From Microcaldota archaeon (GTDB lineage: Archaea > Micrarchaeota > Micrarchaeia > Anstonellales > Bilamarchaeaceae): a DNA stretch of 42,354 nt. The notes under the pieces were generated by a model. The model saw nothing but the letters and a program-made list of their open reading frames with translations. It did no database searches and was not told the DNA's origin. Of the stretch, positions 1,482 through 32,178 are shown in pieces. Within the stretch, counting starts at the first letter, position 1. Each line of letters begins with the position of its first letter. The position numbers were made by a program, and so were the translations under genes. The DNA lies in contig JACRGB010000027.1 of assembly GCA_016212505.1 (NCBI GenBank), forward strand, positions 1 through 42,354, written 5' to 3'.

Positions 1482-2045
1482 TTAAAGACCCACATCCCCG
1501 GAAGTACCACCTATTAGTTCTATTGCCCGAGTGTTTTCTGATTTTACGGATTCTAAAGCAGTCTTTACTGAGCCTATACCGCTCATTGAAGCTTGCACAA
1601 CTTCATCATCACCACAGATCTGTTCGCAAGTCTCCCTAAAGGTACGTCCGATAACACTTTCGCTAACAGGCCCATAGATACCTGCATTATACACGAAACC
1701 TATGCGCTGATTCATTATTTCTGACTGAACACCTGTGCCACAATACCTAGATATTATCGCATATATGGCCGCTGTTCGGTCGGGTGTAGGTTTAGAACGA
1801 TCTGCAATGAAGGTTTTTATGAACTGCACGACATCTTTTTCCTCTTGCGCAATAGCTGCAATTGCACCCTCAAAACCAACCACACTTTTCTGGTGTTCTC
1901 TACCCACCACACAGATAGCATAAAATATCTCGCGTATTTTAGTACTACCAATAGGGGCTTCAGGTGCCATCTTATGCTTTGATCCAAACGAACCGCCTCC
2001 GCCTCCTTTTCTTCCTATTTCACTTTTTTGTTTCATTTTTTTCAC
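1482..2045 (-). CDS. Hypothetical protein, same operon as the editing-domain-like protein
   Basis: 187-aa ORF; its stop lies 1 nt before the downstream ATG. Confidence 0.5.
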   Translation of the reverse strand: MKKMKQKSEIGRKGGGGGSFGSKHKMAPEAPIGSTKIREIFYAICVVGREHQKSVVGFEGAIAAIAQEEKDVVQFIKTFIADRSKPTPDRTAAIYAIISRYCGTGVQSEIMNQRIGFVYNAGIYGPVSESVIGRTFRETCEQICGDDEVVQASMSGIGSVKTALESVKSENTRAIELIGGTSGDVGL

Positions 2046-7891: not shown

Positions 7892-8154
7892 GCAGGGATG
7901 ACAGAGCCCGGTCAAGGGAGTTTTCAGTCTTGAGTTTCCCGTTTTGGGAAATCGAAACTGGGAACAGGAAACTGAAAACCCGACTAAATGTGCGGCGCTT
8001 AGGACGCCGTGGCTTAGTGCCTGCGCAGGTTCAAAACCCATTACTTTTGATTTATGCTTGCCTTCTGGCAAAAGTAAAGGGATTGGTCAAAAGCCAACCA
8101 GTTTCATTCCGTAACGAAACGGAAAACTGGAAACTGAGAATCCTGCTCCCTGCA
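7892..8154 (+). tRNA. tRNA-Leu(TAG) with two non-canonical introns: D-loop (~7916-7987) and T-loop (~8036-8140)
   Basis: Acceptor GCAGGGA/TCCCTGC+A; ACA-GAGCCCGGTCAA[intron]A-TGT; CGGCG-CTTAGGA-CGCCG; class II variable arm TGGCTTAGTGCCTGC; GCAGG-TTCAAA[intron]T-CCTGC. Spliced length 86 nt. Confidence 0.87.
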
Positions 8155-8238: not shown

Positions 8239-9459
8239 GTGGTGCATATGGGAAAACTTGATTTGTACAATTACCCCAAGAGGCTTGAGGGGGCGTTAGG
8301 TATGCTAAGGCAAGAGCACATCTGCGAAGAGAATAAACAGGACATAGTATCTTTTACGAAGGTACGGCTTGCCAAAGGCTCAGGACACGGCAGAGTGGCA
8401 AAAATAGTTTATTGCCTTAGGAACATGGCAAAATGGCTGAATAAGCCTTATAGGCAGGCAACGAAAGACGATTTGATAGGCCTCATTGGCGACTTGGAGG
8501 CCAATGTCAACTATGCCGAGCATACAAAATATGACTACAAGGTAGTCCTAAAAATGTTCTACAAATGGCTTTTGGGCAATGACGAATTTTTCCCTCCAGA
8601 AATAAGATGGCTCGGCCTGAAGCTTAAGAACGAAAACCACAAACTGCCCGAGCAATTGCTTACCGAAGATGAGGTATTGAAATTAGCCAACATGGCGGAA
8701 AATCTAAGAGACAAAGCGCTGATTTTGACATTATATGAGGCAGGCTGCCGGATTGGAGAGCTATTATCAATACAAATGAAAAACGTGCAATTTGACCAGC
8801 ATGGTGCCATTCTTAGAGTTAGCGGAAAAACAGGCGACAGACGCATAAGAGTGATAAGTTCCGCACCAATTCTTGGCTCATGGATCAATATGTATCCAAG
8901 ATCATCTGATCCGGATGCACCATTATGGCCATCAACCTGGAGAAACAAAAACTGCGGCATGAAAACATTGGCCTACGGCACATTGTATCAATCGCTCAAG
9001 GATCTTGCAGTAAAGGCAGGGGTTAAGAAAAAAGTTCATCCGCATTTGTTCAGGCATTCCCGAGCTACCGCATTAGCTGGAAAACTTACCGAGGCGCAGA
9101 TGAAGGAGTTGTTTGGGTGGGTTCAGGGTAGCGATATGGCTGCAACGTATGTACACCTTAGCGGCAGGGACGTTGATAACGCTTTGTTGAAATTGCACGG
9201 CTTGGCTAAGCCAGATGAAGAGCAGGAGAATAAAATGAAAGTGCAGGTCTGCCAAAGGTGCAAAGAACATAATTCGCCAATATCGAAATTCTGCACAAAG
9301 TGCGGTTTGCCTCTGGACGAAAAATTCCTAATGAGAGTAGAAAAGGAAATACAAACGGGCAATTATGTAGAAAACAAGCTATGGGAAAATGAGGAGTACA
9401 GAGAGTTTAAAATGAAGATGATAATGAAATTGGGTTTGGATAAACAGCTGATTCATTGA
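8239..9459 (+). CDS. Tyrosine recombinase/integrase with C-terminal zinc ribbon
   Basis: GCRIGELL, HLFRHSRAT and YVHLSGRDVD catalytic region; CQRCKEHNSPISKFCTKCG zinc ribbon; adjacent to a tRNA 3' end. Confidence 0.93.
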   Translation: MVHMGKLDLYNYPKRLEGALGMLRQEHICEENKQDIVSFTKVRLAKGSGHGRVAKIVYCLRNMAKWLNKPYRQATKDDLIGLIGDLEANVNYAEHTKYDYKVVLKMFYKWLLGNDEFFPPEIRWLGLKLKNENHKLPEQLLTEDEVLKLANMAENLRDKALILTLYEAGCRIGELLSIQMKNVQFDQHGAILRVSGKTGDRRIRVISSAPILGSWINMYPRSSDPDAPLWPSTWRNKNCGMKTLAYGTLYQSLKDLAVKAGVKKKVHPHLFRHSRATALAGKLTEAQMKELFGWVQGSDMAATYVHLSGRDVDNALLKLHGLAKPDEEQENKMKVQVCQRCKEHNSPISKFCTKCGLPLDEKFLMRVEKEIQTGNYVENKLWENEEYREFKMKMIMKLGLDKQLIH

Positions 9460-10836: not shown

Positions 10837-11625
10837 ATGGAACCACATTTCCAGTACGCTGGACTGAATGCAAGGATAATCAAAAACGAAACTGCCTTGA
10901 TGGCACAGACTTTGGGACATGAAAATTTATGCAGAAAAGAGTATGAAGATCGGCTTATTGCCGCAATAAAACCAATAGCACACGGAAACTCATGCGAGAA
11001 CCTTTTTGTGCATGGACCCGCTGGATCTGGGAAAACAACGATGATAAAACACGTTTTGGATCAACTGAAACTTTACAATCCGAGAGTTTTATCCCTGTAC
11101 GTTAATTGCTGGTATCACAGCACCTCAATGGCCATATTTACCAAAATAGCCGATGCCTTGGGCGAACCTGTATCAAGAAGAGGAAGGGCGACTGATGAGA
11201 TATTCGACCGTATCATAGAGCTTATGAAATACCAAAAAACTCCAGTCATGCTTGTTCTTGATGAGATAGATGGCCTTGTGCACAGAGACGATACAAGAGT
11301 GCTACACAACATTGCCAGAATAGCCCCTGATGAGGCACGATTTGGTGTTATTGGAATATCTGACGATAGTCACGTACTTTCAAGAGTACATACGAAAATC
11401 AGGGATCATCTTCGTTTTACTCCTTTTGAGATAAAGGGTTATAACAAAGAACAATTATTTGGGTTGCTGAAAAGGAGAGCTGAAACCGGACTGATTGAAG
11501 ACTCCTACAAAGACGAATCTCTGGATAGAATCGCAGAGTTGGCCTTTGATAATAATGGCAACGGCAAATTTGCCCTTGAGCTTCTATGGAAAGTGCCAAG
11601 CACGCAGAGGCAAAAGGCAATGTAG
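10837..11625 (+). CDS. Orc1/Cdc6-like AAA+ ATPase (N-terminal part; apparent frameshift at 3' end)
   Basis: Walker A GPAGSGKTT, Walker B VLDEIDGL; out-of-track tail LLWKVPSTQRQKAM. Confidence 0.8.
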   Translation: MEPHFQYAGLNARIIKNETALMAQTLGHENLCRKEYEDRLIAAIKPIAHGNSCENLFVHGPAGSGKTTMIKHVLDQLKLYNPRVLSLYVNCWYHSTSMAIFTKIADALGEPVSRRGRATDEIFDRIIELMKYQKTPVMLVLDEIDGLVHRDDTRVLHNIARIAPDEARFGVIGISDDSHVLSRVHTKIRDHLRFTPFEIKGYNKEQLFGLLKRRAETGLIEDSYKDESLDRIAELAFDNNGNGKFALELLWKVPSTQRQKAM

Positions 11626-12240: not shown

Positions 12241-14661
12241 TTATTGCCCCAGTACCTGTTTTACTTTATCCTCTATCTCTGTCCGTAGTATTACCTTGCC
12301 GTATTTCTCAAAATCCTTTTTCCAGTCCCTGTGTGTAACAAGGATATAGCAGTCGTCATATTCCTGTGCAATCTTTTCATATTTTTGTTTAGTTTCTTCG
12401 GGATGCTTTTCTTCCATCACTCCAGTTTCAACTTCAAAACAGATTTTTCTCTTGTTGTTTGTCATCACAACTACATCTGGATTGTGAGTCGCATACAAAA
12501 CAACATGGTCGGTGTATTTTTTTGCTTCCGCCTCTATTATCTTGCAGAAAAAGAAATGCACCGGGCCTTCGTTGGGGCGTGGTGTCACATAATATCTTTG
12601 GCCTCTTCCTTTTCCAAACGGATTGATTTCGATTTCCGTATACTCCTCATTTTCAAGCATTCTGCATTGATCTTCTGTCAAGTCCTTTTTTAGGTAAAAT
12701 CCCTGATAAATATCGAATATTTTTACCCCTTCTTTTTGTTCCTTCTGTTCATCCTTTGGCGTTTTCATTTTCCTTACCTCTTCCGGATCGGTGGTTATCA
12801 TGTCATGGATCTTTGGAGACGGCTTGGCGAAAAATTTCTGCCTGCCATGCTCGGTTATGATAAGCCCGTGCCCCTTGGTGCACTTTATCAGATAGTCCTT
12901 TTCGTTGCGGTTGAGCTTGAGCACGCCGCTGATAAGGTCAATATTGGAGGTGCTCTGCTTCATGAGGATTTTGACCGAAGTCTGGTTGAGGATGGATTTT
13001 CCGCCTTCCCTGCCGAGCAAATCCTCTATCTCCTGTGTTATGAAGCCTATTGAGGCGTTGAATTTCCTTGATGTTTTTATCAGGTTAAGCAGGTACTCCT
13101 CTGCTTCCTTGCTGCGCAGCAATGCCCAGCCTTCGTCTATCAAAAGCACTTTTGCATTTTTATCCTTCTCAATCTCCCTTTTGATAAAATCCAGCACAAG
13201 AAACATCATCAATGGCTTTACCGCATGGGGCAATTCGCTAAGGTCAAAGTTCAGGAACTTATTCCTCAGATCTATGTCGGTTTGCCTATCCATGAAGCCA
13301 AAAAAGCCGTTCCTGCAATACATCCCGATGCGGTTGATAAGAACCTGCACGCTTCTGGTATCTGAGGACAATTGCTTTTTATCCGCCTTCTCAAGGTCTT
13401 TGAGCTGTGATCCTAGTACGCCGTACATTTCACTGAAAGTAGGAGGCTCTCTTTTCCATGTTTCCGGATCGTTCCTGAAAATCCCTTTCTGCTCATAAAC
13501 GCGGGGCAGTACCCGGTTAAGCACCCCTTTCTGGCTTTCGCTCAACCCTCCAACGATTATGTCGAATATTGAAACAAGGGTAAGGAGCTTGCTGCCAAGA
13601 TCCTGGCCTGCAAGGTCAAATACATTTATCATTGATTTTGAAACCCTTGAAAGCTCGATATTTTCCCCGCCGAATTTCTTGCAGATCTCCTTGTATTCCG
13701 CGTTCGGGTCAAGTATGAATATCTTGGTAGCCTCTGCAAAAAGTATCTGAAGCATGAGGTATTTTGCAGTGTAGCTTTTTCCTGAACCGCTTATCCCAAG
13801 GATAAAAAAATGCTTGTTCGACATTGTACCAAAATCTATGAAGATCGGGTTAAGGGTCTCTTCTTCATGTGCAAACAGGATGCCCTTTTTATCAGAATCA
13901 GAGGATGAAAGGAAAGGGAACGTTGCAGCTAAAGGATAAGTTGGAAACTCCTGCTGCACGCTCAGCTCATCAATGCTTAATGGCAGGCAGGAGCGCAGCC
14001 CTTCATACATTCTGTAATTTGTTGTTTTTGGAATGATCAATAAGCCGTTGAGGTTGGACTTGCATTTTTCAGTAAGCAGATTCAGGTTCTCCAGGGTTGC
14101 CTCCTTGTTGTCAATGTATAATGAAATCCTGAACAGTTTCTCCTCGCCCTTATAGAGTGCATCGTAAAGCTTTTTCGTATCCGCAAGCTTTATTTCCAAC
14201 GAAGGGTTAGGCGTTCCTTTTGCTGTGCTGGAGATCAGGTCAGCGGTCTGCTTCATTATCTGATTCTGCAAAAATGTTAGCGTATCATTTATTACTGAAG
14301 GGTATAGGTGGATTGAAATATCATAATTCTCATTCTTGTTCAGGAATGCACCAAGCCATCCATCCTCAACTTTTCTCGGGTATCCAACTGCCTGAATGAC
14401 TCGATGATATGTTTCGTTTATTCTTGCATAATCCGGTCTTATTTCAACGTAGGAAGGGGTTATAAGATAGGAAAATATCTCATCCTTGGAGATTGGCCTT
14501 TCATGCTTCTGGGTAAGAAAAGCAGGCAGAACAAACCAGTTTTTCCTTGGCTTTTCTATGTTTATCTTTTCAGCAATTAGCCTGTCCACTTCTTCAGGCG
14601 TAAAGAGTCTTGGTCTTTTATGTTCGATTATAATATCTTTTTCTTCATCCATCTTGCTCAC
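12241..14661 (-). CDS. VirB4-like type IV secretion ATPase with C-terminal PD-(D/E)xK-like extension
   Basis: GISGSGKSYTAKYLM, VLLIDEGWALL, FITQEIEDLL; tail HNPDVVVMTNNKRKICFEVETG. Confidence 0.88.
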   Translation of the reverse strand: MSKMDEEKDIIIEHKRPRLFTPEEVDRLIAEKINIEKPRKNWFVLPAFLTQKHERPISKDEIFSYLITPSYVEIRPDYARINETYHRVIQAVGYPRKVEDGWLGAFLNKNENYDISIHLYPSVINDTLTFLQNQIMKQTADLISSTAKGTPNPSLEIKLADTKKLYDALYKGEEKLFRISLYIDNKEATLENLNLLTEKCKSNLNGLLIIPKTTNYRMYEGLRSCLPLSIDELSVQQEFPTYPLAATFPFLSSSDSDKKGILFAHEEETLNPIFIDFGTMSNKHFFILGISGSGKSYTAKYLMLQILFAEATKIFILDPNAEYKEICKKFGGENIELSRVSKSMINVFDLAGQDLGSKLLTLVSIFDIIVGGLSESQKGVLNRVLPRVYEQKGIFRNDPETWKREPPTFSEMYGVLGSQLKDLEKADKKQLSSDTRSVQVLINRIGMYCRNGFFGFMDRQTDIDLRNKFLNFDLSELPHAVKPLMMFLVLDFIKREIEKDKNAKVLLIDEGWALLRSKEAEEYLLNLIKTSRKFNASIGFITQEIEDLLGREGGKSILNQTSVKILMKQSTSNIDLISGVLKLNRNEKDYLIKCTKGHGLIITEHGRQKFFAKPSPKIHDMITTDPEEVRKMKTPKDEQKEQKEGVKIFDIYQGFYLKKDLTEDQCRMLENEEYTEIEINPFGKGRGQRYYVTPRPNEGPVHFFFCKIIEAEAKKYTDHVVLYATHNPDVVVMTNNKRKICFEVETGVMEEKHPEETKQKYEKIAQEYDDCYILVTHRDWKKDFEKYGKVILRTEIEDKVKQVLGQ

Positions 14662-27745: not shown

Positions 27746-27883
27746 ATATTTAACTGCTAATAGAGATTTAAAATATCATCATAAATCATCTTTATTTATC
27801 TTAATTCGTTTTCTCTGTTTCGATCCTATGTTATCAATGCAGGAAAATTTTCTGCTCAGTCAATTACCTAACTTCCTTCAGGC

Positions 27884-27934
27884 CAGCATTTATATAGAAC
27901 TAGCGATTTATTTACCTCGACAAAAAGGGCAAAA
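27884..27934. repeat. Direct repeat R1: CAGCATTTATA-N19-ACCTCGACAAAAAGGGCAAAA
   Basis: Exact match in both blocks with the same spacer length to 29284-29334. Confidence 0.9.
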
Positions 27935-27949: not shown

Positions 27950-27971
27950 GGTTTACGCTATAACGTAAACC
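27950..27971. repeat. Near-palindrome GGTTTACGCTATAACGTAAACC at end of ATPase gene
   Basis: 17/22 identical to GGTATACGTTATATCGTAAGCA at 29172-29193 (ATPase promoter side). Confidence 0.6.
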
Positions 27972-29142
27972 ATTGAGTGATCTGTTTCTCGCCACTCAAT
28001 AAAAACGTCTTTTTGGTTTTATGCTCTTTTGAAAACTGTTCCAATGAAGACGTTTCCCGTGCGGGTGCTTCTTGCGTTGCACAAACATTAATGGCTGTAA
28101 GTTCAAGGCCTTCCTTAACAATAAAATCTATTTCAAAATCATTAGAGTAATACTGAATTTCTTTTCCTGACCTTAGAAGTTCAATTGCTACTGCATTTTC
28201 AGTTCTTCTACCGAAATCTAATGAGAATGACTTTGAAATCGCAGCCTGTAAACCCGTATCATAAGCATAATATCTTCTTGGTTTTTCCATTGCCTTCTTC
28301 AACGAATATGAAAATGCAGGTACATGAAATGCAATAAAAGCATCTTCAAGATAGGACAAATACATCTTAATGGCATCAAAAGAAAGACCAGTCATTGCTC
28401 TGAGCTTGTTATAGCTGAACAATTTTCCAGAATTAGTTATAACATATACTGCAAGAGTTCGCAACGTAGGTACATCTCTTACTTCGTATCTTGTGGAGAT
28501 ATCTCGGGTTATAGCACTATCGAAGTATTCTTCGAGCATACGAAGACGTTTTTCAGGATTTTTTTCCAAAACGACTGCAGGATAACCTCCAATTTCCAAA
28601 TAATCTTTTAGAGCTGCTTTAGGGTGAACTTTTTTGAACTCTTTAAAGGAAAAGGGAAGTACAAGGAAACCTAAGCCCCGACCTCCTAACGTAGTAGAGA
28701 ATTCAGAACTTAATAGTTTTGCAGATGAACCTGTGACAAAAATCTTGAAAGTTTTTTTATCTACATTTACCCTTACCCACTTCTCCCAGTTAGGAACATT
28801 TTGAATTTCGTCTAAAAAAATATATTTTGGTTTTTTATTGAACGTTTTGGTGAATTCTGCCATAATATCATCAAGGAATGAGGTCGAGAGTAATCCTGAG
28901 AACGATGGCTCCTCAAAGTTAACATAAAGGCAGGAGTGTTTTCCATGCTTATCTGCAAGGAAAGAGAGGATCTGGAGGCACACAGTCGTTTTTCCTGAAC
29001 GCCTGGGTCCATAGAAATAAACTGCATCTGGTCCATGTATCAGTTCTTTGGCTTTTTCAGTTACATCTCTGGGAATTCCAAGATCTGGCTTTCTAGTCCA
29101 ATAATTCCAGCTTTCGATGATTTTCCAAATGCGTTCTTCCAT
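27958..29142 (-). CDS. AAA+ ATPase of the AAA_14/DUF4143 family
   Basis: GPRRSGKTTVCLQIL, IFLDEIQNVPNWEKWVR, FVTGSSAKLLSSE; C-terminal DUF4143-type region. Confidence 0.87.
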   Translation of the reverse strand: MEERIWKIIESWNYWTRKPDLGIPRDVTEKAKELIHGPDAVYFYGPRRSGKTTVCLQILSFLADKHGKHSCLYVNFEEPSFSGLLSTSFLDDIMAEFTKTFNKKPKYIFLDEIQNVPNWEKWVRVNVDKKTFKIFVTGSSAKLLSSEFSTTLGGRGLGFLVLPFSFKEFKKVHPKAALKDYLEIGGYPAVVLEKNPEKRLRMLEEYFDSAITRDISTRYEVRDVPTLRTLAVYVITNSGKLFSYNKLRAMTGLSFDAIKMYLSYLEDAFIAFHVPAFSYSLKKAMEKPRRYYAYDTGLQAAISKSFSLDFGRRTENAVAIELLRSGKEIQYYSNDFEIDFIVKEGLELTAINVCATQEAPARETSSLEQFSKEHKTKKTFLLSGEKQITQWFTL

Positions 29143-29283: not shown

Positions 29284-29334
29284 CAGCATTTATAAGCCTC
29301 AGCCCTTAGAACGACCTCGACAAAAAGGGCAAAA
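29284..29334. repeat. Direct repeat R2: CAGCATTTATA-N19-ACCTCGACAAAAAGGGCAAAA
   Basis: Partner of R1, exactly 1400 bp apart. Confidence 0.9.
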
Positions 29335-29368
29335 AGACGTGTGCGTCCTCAGGACTGATCTGAGGTTT

Positions 29369-29379
29369 TGCTCCCTGCA
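29369..29379 (+). repeat. TGCTCCCTGCA repeat, candidate att (tRNA-Leu 3'-end-like)
   Basis: Same 11-mer as tRNA-Leu 3' end (8144-8154); wider TTTGCTCCCTGCATYTAGTTTTTT shared with 32168 copy. Confidence 0.6.
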
Positions 29380-29426: not shown

Positions 29427-31172
29427 CTATTTGTTGGGTTTTAAACTTACTAATCGACCCTCGCTAAAAGTGGAGACTGGTACATTATATGTAACCGTGT
29501 CTAATTCTCCTTCATACGAAAGGTGAAAAACAGTTTCAGAAGAATTAAACCTGGGTGCATACAAGATTTTTGCACCAAAAGAGGAGGATATCATTGCACC
29601 TATCGAGCTTTCAAGTAAACCTGTAGCACAGGCAATTAGAGCAATAGTTGAGTTTGGTGCCATCCATTGTCTTATATTTCTATGCTTAATTTCTTCTTCA
29701 TCGGTTAAATCGAGTTCATATCTTCCATCTAATTTCTCTTCATCAGATAAATTTACAGAGTCAGGTTCAATATGCTTACCACCTAACCTTATAGACTGAG
29801 GAGTACCATGTCCTCCAATTATTAACAGAGATATTTTTTTGCTCTTTCCAGTAGCTTCCACTCTTTCATAGAAATCTTTTTCATTATCCGTTTCAACAAT
29901 CACGACCCTATAAAACTTAGTCAATCCATCCAATGTCAGACCCTCTCTATAGAATGCACCATCAAAATCGCATTTATTAAAAACTATCAATGCAACGGGT
30001 TTATCAGAATTCGAAATGGCATTTTTGTAGGTTTCATCCAACGTATTTTTAGTGTATCTCAAAAAATAAGTAATACCGAAAGCTTGATATAACGTTTTTA
30101 TTTTTTCTTCGCCGAGTATTGTTAATCCCCAGACCAAATTCAATAAAATTTCGCCATCTTGAGAAACACCTAATTGTCTTGCAAATGCTCTGGCTCTAAC
30201 AATTCTCTTAAAAGTAGAAGAAGAATTCGCAAAAAATTCCCTTACCTCTGGATTTCTAAGTAGGTATAATGCATGGATAGCATGGACTCCTGCAATCTTA
30301 GTCATCTCAACAAATGCATCGGTAAACTTCTTAGGATCTTTAATAAATGGATCTAAGATCAGATCGTTTGCAAGAGACTTAAATACGTAACTGGTATGGT
30401 CCTTTGCAACCCTGGCTAGTTGGATAAATTGATCTGGATATTTGACAAACAACCGGGCAATTTTATCACTTGCAAGAACTTCAAAAACATCGTTTTGATT
30501 TTTCCCAACGGATTTTATAATATCTGCAAACTGATCAGCAAACCTCTTAGGATCTTTAATAAAGTACTCTGAAAGTGTATCATTTTTAAAAGCTGGGAAT
30601 ATACTACCTCGGAAATTTTTTGCGGCTTTGAGAATCACAATAAAAGCATCAACTATTTTCTTAGGTTCTTTAACAAAAGAATGAGCTATTTTATCGTTTT
30701 CAAAAGCAATGAGTGTAATGCCTGTACCTGCAGCTTTAACCAGTTCAACAAACCTATACGGATATTTTGTAAATAATTCTGCACTTTTTTCATGAGCCGT
30801 AAAAGATAAAAATATATGCCATGCACGGTCTCCTGCAGCTTTATAAAACTCAACGAAAATGTCAGTTGCTTTTTTAGGGTCTCTAATAAAAAATTCGGCA
30901 AGCTTATCACTTTCAAGAGCTCGAATAACATAACCAGTACTATCTCCGAAGACTTTAGCAATAGTTTGAATAGCTGTTTTTACTGCAGCGATTTTTTGTT
31001 TTATCTTATTTGGTTCTGTAATTTTCAAAATTTGTCTAGCTAATTCTTCCTGACAGTTTGCTCCAATTTCTTTTTGTATTGCACCAATTGACCATATTTT
31101 CGGAGATTTTGTTTCAACTACCAGAGGTTTGAATTGAAATATAAACATAATTTCTATCTTTAATCGATACAA
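29427..31172 (-). CDS. Helical-repeat protein with C-terminal caspase-like (clan CD) protease-like domain
   Basis: LLIIGGHGTPQSIRLGG (His) and IALIACATG (Cys); N-terminal 33-38-aa repeats such as NDTLSEYFIKDPKRFADQFADIIKSVG. Confidence 0.6.
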   Translation of the reverse strand: MYRLKIEIMFIFQFKPLVVETKSPKIWSIGAIQKEIGANCQEELARQILKITEPNKIKQKIAAVKTAIQTIAKVFGDSTGYVIRALESDKLAEFFIRDPKKATDIFVEFYKAAGDRAWHIFLSFTAHEKSAELFTKYPYRFVELVKAAGTGITLIAFENDKIAHSFVKEPKKIVDAFIVILKAAKNFRGSIFPAFKNDTLSEYFIKDPKRFADQFADIIKSVGKNQNDVFEVLASDKIARLFVKYPDQFIQLARVAKDHTSYVFKSLANDLILDPFIKDPKKFTDAFVEMTKIAGVHAIHALYLLRNPEVREFFANSSSTFKRIVRARAFARQLGVSQDGEILLNLVWGLTILGEEKIKTLYQAFGITYFLRYTKNTLDETYKNAISNSDKPVALIVFNKCDFDGAFYREGLTLDGLTKFYRVVIVETDNEKDFYERVEATGKSKKISLLIIGGHGTPQSIRLGGKHIEPDSVNLSDEEKLDGRYELDLTDEEEIKHRNIRQWMAPNSTIALIACATGLLESSIGAMISSSFGAKILYAPRFNSSETVFHLSYEGELDTVTYNVPVSTFSEGRLVSLKPNK

Positions 31173-31222
31173 TTAAATAAATTAACTCCTCGAGTTAAGA
31201 CCATAGATTCCACATTGAGCTT

Positions 31223-31233
31223 TGCTCCCTGCA
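31223..31233 (+). repeat. TGCTCCCTGCA repeat, candidate att
   Basis: Exact 11-mer, same orientation. Confidence 0.55.
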
Positions 31234-31290: not shown

Positions 31291-31394
31291 TACCAAACCA
31301 ACCAAATGCCTCACAGTAATTGGTTGGGTGATACTACGAGTTGGTTTGGTAGTTCTGAACCAACACATAAGTATGTCCGAGTTAGTTGGTTCAG
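31291..31394. repeat. Two inverted repeats upstream of MTase: TACCAAACCAAC/GTTGGTTTGGTA and CTGAACCAAC/GTTGGTTCAG
   Basis: 12-bp perfect arms at 31291-31302 and 31340-31351; 10-bp perfect arms at 31355-31364 and 31385-31394. Confidence 0.75.
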
Positions 31395-31463
31395 TATAGA
31401 TATAAACTTGAAAATGGGGGAAGTTTAGGAGAACCTTTAAATGGCATATTCTTATTAGTAAAC

Positions 31464-32108
31464 ATGAAAGAATTACATCTGGAAAATTCCTGGTTTTTAA
31501 TTTCTAGCAAACTGAAAAAAATTAAATTCAATGGAGATACGGATATTCGGTATACCGAAGAATTTGTTGAAATGTTCATCCGTAAATTTACAAAAAGAGG
31601 GGATAGAATCTTAGATCCTTTTGCTGGTTTTGGTACAACGTTGTTTGTAGGCCAACAATTGGGACGAACAGTTATTGGGATAGAATATGACAAAAGTCAA
31701 TATGAATACATTAACGAGCGGATTAAAGAGCCATGTAAAATCATACATGGTAATTCCCTAAAACTCAGATCGTATAACTTGCCAAAGTTTGACTTTTCCA
31801 TAACTTCTCCTCCCTATATGAGATACTTTGATAAGGAAGATCCATTTACAAATTATACAAAAATTGGGAGTTACTCAAAATATTTGAAAGATATTGGAAG
31901 AATATATAAGCAGATCAAAAAGGTAATGAAAAAAAATGCCATAATCATAATCGAAGTGTCAAATACAATTGGGCAGGGCCGCCCGTTGACTCCTTTAGCT
32001 TGGGACATAGGGAGAGAAATTTCGAAAATATTCTTTTTCGAACAAGAAATAATTTATTGCTCAACAGAAGGCGATCATAGCCACGTTTTAGTATTTAAGA
32101 ACAAATAA
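31464..32108 (+). CDS. DNA methyltransferase (DPFAGFGTT ... TSPPY order)
   Basis: RILDPFAGFGTTLFVGQQLGRTVIGIEYD; FSITSPPYMRYF; start taken at MKELHLEN. Confidence 0.82.
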   Translation: MKELHLENSWFLISSKLKKIKFNGDTDIRYTEEFVEMFIRKFTKRGDRILDPFAGFGTTLFVGQQLGRTVIGIEYDKSQYEYINERIKEPCKIIHGNSLKLRSYNLPKFDFSITSPPYMRYFDKEDPFTNYTKIGSYSKYLKDIGRIYKQIKKVMKKNAIIIIEVSNTIGQGRPLTPLAWDIGREISKIFFFEQEIIYCSTEGDHSHVLVFKNK

Positions 32109-32167
32109 CTGCAAAGTAATCATTTTCATTAAAGATCAGTGTCCAAGTGCAAGGGGCAGGGTAAGTT

Positions 32168-32178
32168 TGCTCCCTGCA
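32168..32178 (+). repeat. TGCTCCCTGCA repeat, candidate distal att
   Basis: Exact 11-mer; abuts the stop of the OB-fold gene; extended match to 29369 copy. Confidence 0.6.

Follow-up and report, generated by a model that had tools for sequence, protein, structure and literature searches.

What does an archaeal gene do that joins helical repeats to a caspase-like domain and lies alone between two short att-like repeats? We address this question for a gene in a stretch of 42,354 nucleotides (hereafter, the "window") from a member of the Micrarchaeota, whose draft genome consists of 46 contigs, totals 1.48 Mb, and is about 90% complete. Caspase-like sensor-proteases are central to abortive infection in bacteria. 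DPANN archaea have small genomes with little room for luxury genes, and their defense genes are poorly known; we know of no described family of caspase-like sensor-proteases in this group. The original prediction for the gene, made from the sequence, was a candidate new effector system that combines a repeat sensor with a caspase-like protease. Here, we describe the two halves of the protein, the family to which it belongs, the insertion that carries it, and the functions that could explain these features.

The gene lies within a single minus-strand ORF at 29427..31172, which encodes 581 aa when read from a TTG codon. Translation more likely starts at an in-frame ATG at codon 9 (position 31148), the point at which related repeat proteins open with MFIF or MFVF; with this start, the gene would span 29427..31148 (minus strand) and encode 573 aa. 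All residue numbers below follow the 581-aa numbering. The protein begins MFIFQFKPLVVETK, and inspection of the translation revealed no obvious signal peptide and no transmembrane segment.

The C-terminal part of the protein, residues 306–581 (29430..30257, minus strand), is a conserved module that an alignment of homologues (A1), AlphaFold, and Foldseek assign to the clan-CD caspase-like fold. The His and Cys signatures of clan CD that had been noted earlier are indeed present: predicted catalytic His455 is part of a GGHG motif (within IIGGHG; 29808..29810, minus strand), and predicted catalytic Cys515 is part of ACATG (within IACATG, SCSTG in most homologues; 29628..29630, minus strand). Both residues were already invariant in A1, which holds 32 homologues from related genomes, and they are invariant in 55/55 homologues spanning both sites, from the 56 members collected. 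Given that overall identity among homologues is about 25–45%, this invariance, together with the position of the two residues after core strands, argues that the signatures are not chance matches. In the 56-member set, Glu427 is also invariant and Asp402 nearly so. The AlphaFold (AF2) model of residues 306–581, built with A1, has a pLDDT of 92.2 and a pTM of 0.91. Its strands at 88–94, 117–123, 142–148, and 199–208 (module numbering) have pLDDT >90, and the order of elements read along the chain is beta1, beta2, beta3-His, beta4-Cys, i.e., His150 follows the third core strand (142–148) and Cys210 follows the fourth (199–208). In the caspase/haemoglobinase fold, the His and the Cys are located at the ends of strands 3 and 4, respectively (PMC4357240). 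The module has what characterizes clan CD: a core beta-alpha fold, this His/Cys placement along the chain, and a conserved dyad.

Comparison with solved structures leads to the same fold that had been anticipated. The top Foldseek match of the module model in the PDB is the DUF4347 protein Tce1 (E 4.5e-5, probability 1.00), with CED-3 and legumain among the further matches; the full-length model matches SAVED-CHAT (8tl0, probability 1.00) and caspases-4 and -1, with E-values >0.001. A profile search also reached the CHAT protein 8tl0, at E 0.007. Among the 32 members, DUF4347 (PF14252) matches 19 at E≤1 (best 4e-7), CHAT (PF12770) matches two weakly (best E 0.023) without reaching its curated cut-off, and Peptidase_C14 matches none at E≤1. 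The window protein falls below every curated family cut-off in sequence searches, scoring 11.9 bits against DUF4347, for which the curated Pfam cut-off is 24.6. Because the fold agrees and the sequence scores are sub-threshold, we place the C-terminal domain near, not inside, DUF4347 and CHAT, as a divergent clan-CD family of its own. Its modeled fold and conserved dyad suggest that it is a Cys-dependent protease.

Several known proteins resemble the window protein in part. DUF4347 (PF14252; represented by Pseudomonas Tce1, PDB 9qpe, and PA0256) is the best match in both sequence and structure, and His-Gly and Cys motifs are present in both. DUF4347 occurs in type VI secretion effectors, and PA0256 is a Hcp-loaded substrate in Pseudomonas (PMC8262886); the best solved-structure match is itself an Hcp3-Tce1 complex. 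However, this relative is a secretion effector, whereas the domain in the window follows a helical solenoid in an apparently cytosolic protein. TPR-CHAT (Csx29/Craspase) and SAVED-CHAT share the arrangement of an N-terminal sensor or solenoid with a C-terminal caspase-like protease, but the repeats in the window are different and undescribed, and the vicinity of the gene lacks a CRISPR, SAVED, or cyclic-nucleotide partner. Metacaspases and orthocaspases (C14) are similar in their clan-CD dyad, patchy occurrence, multiple copies in some genomes, and diverse fusions; to our knowledge, an N-terminal solenoid is no known partner of metacaspases. Prokaryotic metacaspases are patchily distributed, sometimes multi-copy, and fused to diverse domains, and a 2012 survey found archaeal metacaspases only as single genes in five euryarchaea (PMC3501461).

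The N-terminal ~330 aa had been described as consisting of alternating repeats. Repeats are present, but they are confined to residues ~86–303 (30264..30917, minus strand), and their alternation is not strict: a repeat HMM and the AlphaFold helices delimit six units in the order long-short-long-long-short-long, with lengths of 39, 32, 38, 38, 34, and, for the last, ~37 aa. Residues 1–85 form a separate N-terminal piece, and residues ~306–390 are a helical part that is conserved together with the caspase-like domain. The repeat type, which had not been recognized, has no match in the curated libraries Pfam, NCBIfam, PADLOC, and PHROGs. Short and long helices alternate in the full-length AlphaFold model (pLDDT 79.7, pTM 0.54), and the region is predicted to be an alpha solenoid; solenoid-like PDB matches of this model are weak and are to designed helical repeats only. 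Because the full-length pTM is only 0.54, the placement of the repeats relative to the protease is unreliable. We discounted two other sets of matches. A CARF match to the protein (0.0043) covers only a short helical stretch and was treated as chance, and strong-looking Pfam matches of the longest repeat proteins (to XPC-binding, among others) are sums over repeats in which no individual stretch is significant.

Repeats of the same type were found in 20-odd ORFs, where they precede the caspase-like domain, a domain with FRGHS and PGSCGS motifs, or, in a few proteins, neither. Proteins of the second kind ("class 2") have a C-terminal part of ~440 aa with strictly kept FRGHS, PGSCGS, and NTSTGRGQVTNA motifs. 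This conserved, His/Cys-bearing domain occurs in 20/303 genomes, with examples at L037:6449-8329 (contig C24 of the same genome as the window), L049, L048, L029, and L026. Homology between it and the caspase-like domain was not supported, with an hhalign probability of 0.5% from a class-2 alignment that is shallow. One further protein (L143:3956-5644) combines seven repeats with a C-terminal part of ~290 aa that has no Pfam match and is possibly a third type of effector.

The caspase-like domain is patchily distributed. A profile search detected it in 40/303 Micrarchaeota genomes and 27/127 genera, with up to eight copies per genome, and it is absent from 10 of the 17 genomes of the same genus, well-completed relatives included. 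The named relatives are Candidatus Micrarchaeota: a single pattern scan across GTDB species gave seven loci, all of them in this phylum; the viral, phage, and plasmid collections searched contained no homologue. One genome (G032) has seven tandem genes in ~14 kb and an eighth ~55 kb away on the same contig, and the repeats of these copies are 30% identical versus 54% for the protease domain. In nearly all 56 proteins, the domain is C-terminal, behind differing helical N-termini, some of which are HEAT/ARM-like. Three proteins of 1362–2505 aa (L124, L125, and L129) are unlike the rest of the family in that the domain is located mid-chain. Maximum-likelihood analysis of the domain scatters the members with repeats over several separate clades: the window protein pairs with a repeat-less member (support 99/96), the G032 copies group by themselves (100/100), and L051 and L052 branch elsewhere. 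The simplest reading of this topology is that N-terminal modules have been exchanged between family members; the alternative is repeated loss of the repeats.

Homologues share no genomic context. Among 310 genes flanking them, there is no conserved neighbor and no family at more than four loci, and the neighbor families that can be recognized are housekeeping genes. In the window, the gene for an AAA_14/DUF4143 ATPase (27958..29142, minus strand) adjoins the caspase cassette; we rejected it as a partner, since it adjoins a caspase-like gene only here and in G001 and belongs to a common type of ATPase. The surroundings of the caspase-like gene revealed no partner or substrate gene and no link to gasdermins, toxin-antitoxin modules, or CRISPR, no PADLOC defense model matches the protein, no SAVED or TPR domain occurs within it, and no CRISPR-type gene was seen among the immediate window neighbors scanned. 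Because no partner gene is conserved, "system" is too strong a word, and the gene is better described as a stand-alone effector. The outcomes that would count against the original prediction, i.e., lack of the fold, an unconserved dyad, or homologues in housekeeping operons, were all three absent.

The location of the gene offers a further clue. A tRNA-Leu(UAG) gene is found at 7892..8154 (plus strand), with a D-loop intron at ~7914–7985 and a T-loop intron at ~8036–8139. ARAGORN run on the unedited sequence gave the wrong result that the window has no tRNA, since the two introns hide it; ARAGORN identifies the tRNA once they are removed. Rfam gave no match. The orthologous tRNA genes in two relatives (G013 and G002) are intron-free. 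The 3' end of the tRNA is GCTCCCTGCA, and the final 10 nt of a 13-mer, TTTGCTCCCTGCA, equal the 3' end of the tRNA. This 13-mer occurs on the plus strand at 29367..29379 (r1), 31221..31233 (r2), and 32166..32178 (r3), and at just one more place in the 1.48-Mb genome. The caspase-like gene had been placed between two att-like repeats next to a methylase, which is what we find: r1 and r2 flank it, and the third copy, r3, lies beyond the methylase gene. Chance can be set aside as the origin of the repeats, with three of the four 13-mers in the genome falling within 2.8 kb and four window matches to the 9-mer of the att sequence against 0.16 expected. We likewise rejected terminator hairpins: r3 can fold with a T-run, none of r1–r3 clearly beats shuffled sequences, and the tRNA and empty-site evidence (see below) is decisive. 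On contig C4 of the same genome, a tRNA-Leu(UAA) with anticodon and T-loop introns (L062, ~1589–1810, minus strand) is also missed by standard detection, and a further att copy is located 88 nt downstream of it.

A tyrosine recombinase gene (8239..9459, plus strand; Phage_integrase 1.2e-17; XerA-like 1.7e-32, below the cut-off), whose product has a C-terminal zinc ribbon, begins 85 nt past the tRNA. Further along are genes for an Orc1/Cdc6-like ATPase (10837..11625, plus strand; TIGR02928 9.8e-44) and a VirB4-like conjugal transfer ATPase (12241..14661, minus strand; NF045971 3.5e-82; TraG P-loop 3e-25). The spacing between mre11 and rpS12 is 30 kb here versus 0.6–17.5 kb in relatives of the same genus (0.6 kb in G011, 3.8 in G005, 4 in G010, 5 in G013, 9.4 in G002, and 17.5 in G015), and in G016 homologues of the genes beyond r3 (right of 32.7 kb) come immediately after the tRNA-Leu. 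Since relatives thus have uninvaded or differently filled sites, sequence comparison places the inserted DNA at about 8.15–32.2 kb, with its right end, r3, at 32.18 kb. It consists of a VirB4/Orc1 integrative element followed by two att-bounded single-gene cassettes, the caspase cassette (r1–r2) and the methylase cassette (r2–r3). A tRNA, an adjacent recombinase, a 3'-end repeat on the far side, and an empty site in relatives identify a tRNA-targeted integrative element, and known archaeal elements of this kind likewise have a recombinase beside the tRNA, 3'-end att copies, and tandem accretion.

Some additional features of the element are worth recording. The conjugation-type part, 8239–~29366, also encodes hydrophobic proteins without a Pfam match, a methylase, and, as named by inspection, zinc, heavy-metal, iron, and calcium transport proteins. 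An intergenic element upstream of a calcium exchanger gene recurs on contig C38 (L096:3715-3800) beside an exchanger paralogue of 90% identity; in the window, it is split by the DUF4143 ATPase gene (27883–27934 and 29288–29338), on both sides of which there is a 21-nt exact repeat, ACCTCGACAAAAAGGGCAAAA.

Do the cassettes move? The caspase-like ORF is the sole gene between r1 and r2, and an N4/N6 DNA methylase gene (31464..32108, plus strand; Pfam N6_N4_Mtase 3.9e-22; ORF from a TTG at 31386) is the sole gene between r2 and r3. The methylase cassette is 94% identical at the DNA level in two other species, whereas the adjacent mre11 DNA is only 66–68% identical between the same species, and in both cases homology begins exactly at r2. 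In one (G008), the methylase segment directly follows the tRNA-Leu 3' end, and the 94% match (90% over the first 68 nt) starts exactly at the att core (L171:2393 to window position 31223). In the other (G007), a 171-aa ORF is located between the tRNA and a second att copy, after which comes the 94% methylase segment (L170:3827 to window position 31220). The right border of the cassette is seen only in the window, because the contigs of both other species stop inside the methylase gene. A third species (G006) has a separate one-gene segment (419 aa) between the tRNA and an att copy. Comparison of these sites demonstrates, from their sequences, movement of the methylase cassette. Recent movement of the caspase cassette is an inference by extension, because the genomes searched yielded no near-identical counterpart of the caspase segment.

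The one-gene segments beside mre11 and tRNA-Leu in these three species (L170 in G007, L166 in G006, and L171 in G008) have att flanks with shared arms of the CTGATCAG/CCTCTGATC type; the 171-aa G007 ORF is lipoprotein-like, and the 419-aa G006 ORF has BNR-like repeats. Within the methylase segment of the window, a 106-bp insert (31291–31396) with inverted repeats TACCAAACCAAC...GTTGGTTTGGTA is absent from G007 and G008 and looks like a small non-coding mobile element. The arrangement also recalls integrons, which are known from archaea (PMC9668308), in that cassettes contain single genes. Unlike integrons, however, the window has 3'-tRNA repeats rather than folded attC sites and genes in both orientations; the recombinase scores 42 bits with the integron integrase model, far below its cut-off of 265, and r1 and r2 fold no better than shuffles. 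Most other members of the caspase-like family lack a flanking tRNA or att repeats, so mobility is shown at this locus rather than for the whole family; the mobile location supports, without proving, a role in conflict for the family at large.

The reading that we favor, and to which we assign an even chance, is that the protein acts alone, as a mobile sensor-protease of the abortive-infection or conflict kind. The N-terminal solenoid would bind a ligand, probably an invader protein or nucleic acid, or a stress product. Binding would relieve, or promote assembly of, the C-terminal clan-CD cysteine protease, whose His455/Cys515 dyad would then cleave one or more cellular proteins and cause growth arrest or death, to the benefit of kin or of the element. 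The gene would travel as a single-gene cassette between att repeats derived from the tRNA-Leu 3' end, at the end of an integrative element. By analogy, this logic would be that of the TPR-CHAT and SAVED-CHAT proteases. The features that suggest a sensor and a role in defense are the architecture, the patchy distribution, the tandem expansion, the faster divergence of the repeats, and the location in a mobile cassette.

Other functions have to be weighed against this one. Micrarchaeota are DPANN archaea, which are thought to live attached to other archaea, and the protein might be an effector directed at the host or partner archaeon or at competitors, with the caspase-like domain acting extracellularly or inside the host and the repeats binding a host target. 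We give this a modest chance: the nearest named family, DUF4347, includes the secretion substrate PA0256 (PMC8262886), and the top structural match is the Hcp3-Tce1 complex, but the N-terminus, MFIFQFKPLVVETK, has no obvious export signal or membrane anchor, and no conserved secretion gene lies beside homologues. There is a small chance that the gene instead serves the element, for stability, addiction, or exclusion of competitors, harming cells from which the element has been lost or into which a rival has entered. Such a role would fit a gene that closes a VirB4/Orc1 element, is bounded by att repeats, and has an orphan methylase as its neighbor, and there is precedent in toxin-antitoxin modules under protease control that are flanked by direct repeats (orthocaspase MaOC1; PMC7935541); however, the r1–r2 cassette contains no small antitoxin-like gene, and att repeats are absent from the surroundings of most family members.

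The favored sensor-protease can also be set against roles outside conflict. A regulatory or housekeeping protease of Micrarchaeota, for which variable solenoids choose substrates, would account for the strict retention of the catalytic residues in a family that is old and diverse within the phylum; with the gene missing from most genomes, including 10/17 of the genus, and with no syntenic context, tandem expansions, and a mobile setting here, we consider it distinctly unlikely. Finally, several clan-CD relatives are transamidases, and the fold and dyad could have been kept in an enzyme that is not a protease, e.g., a transpeptidase or a different enzyme of acyl transfer. Caspases, legumain, and SAVED-CHAT are among the nearest neighbors in structure, and we consider such an activity highly improbable.

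If the protein is a sensor-protease of the kind proposed, then a multi-copy, fast-diversifying family with swapped sensors and a kept dyad would be a new branch of prokaryotic death and immunity proteins. Near-identical cassettes amid an adjacent gene that is ~67% identical would point to a route by which such genes spread, and further cassettes should be findable between tRNA-Leu 3'-end repeats next to mre11. More tentatively, and with a chance that we put at somewhat below even, Micrarchaeota may have their own immune-like set of solenoid-caspase proteins whose sensors can be exchanged, and single effector genes of this kind may pass between species as att-bounded one-gene cassettes that are stacked behind tRNA-Leu(UAG) and mobilized by element-borne tyrosine recombinases. 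If so, conflict genes of DPANN archaea would have an integron-like platform that is anchored at a tRNA.
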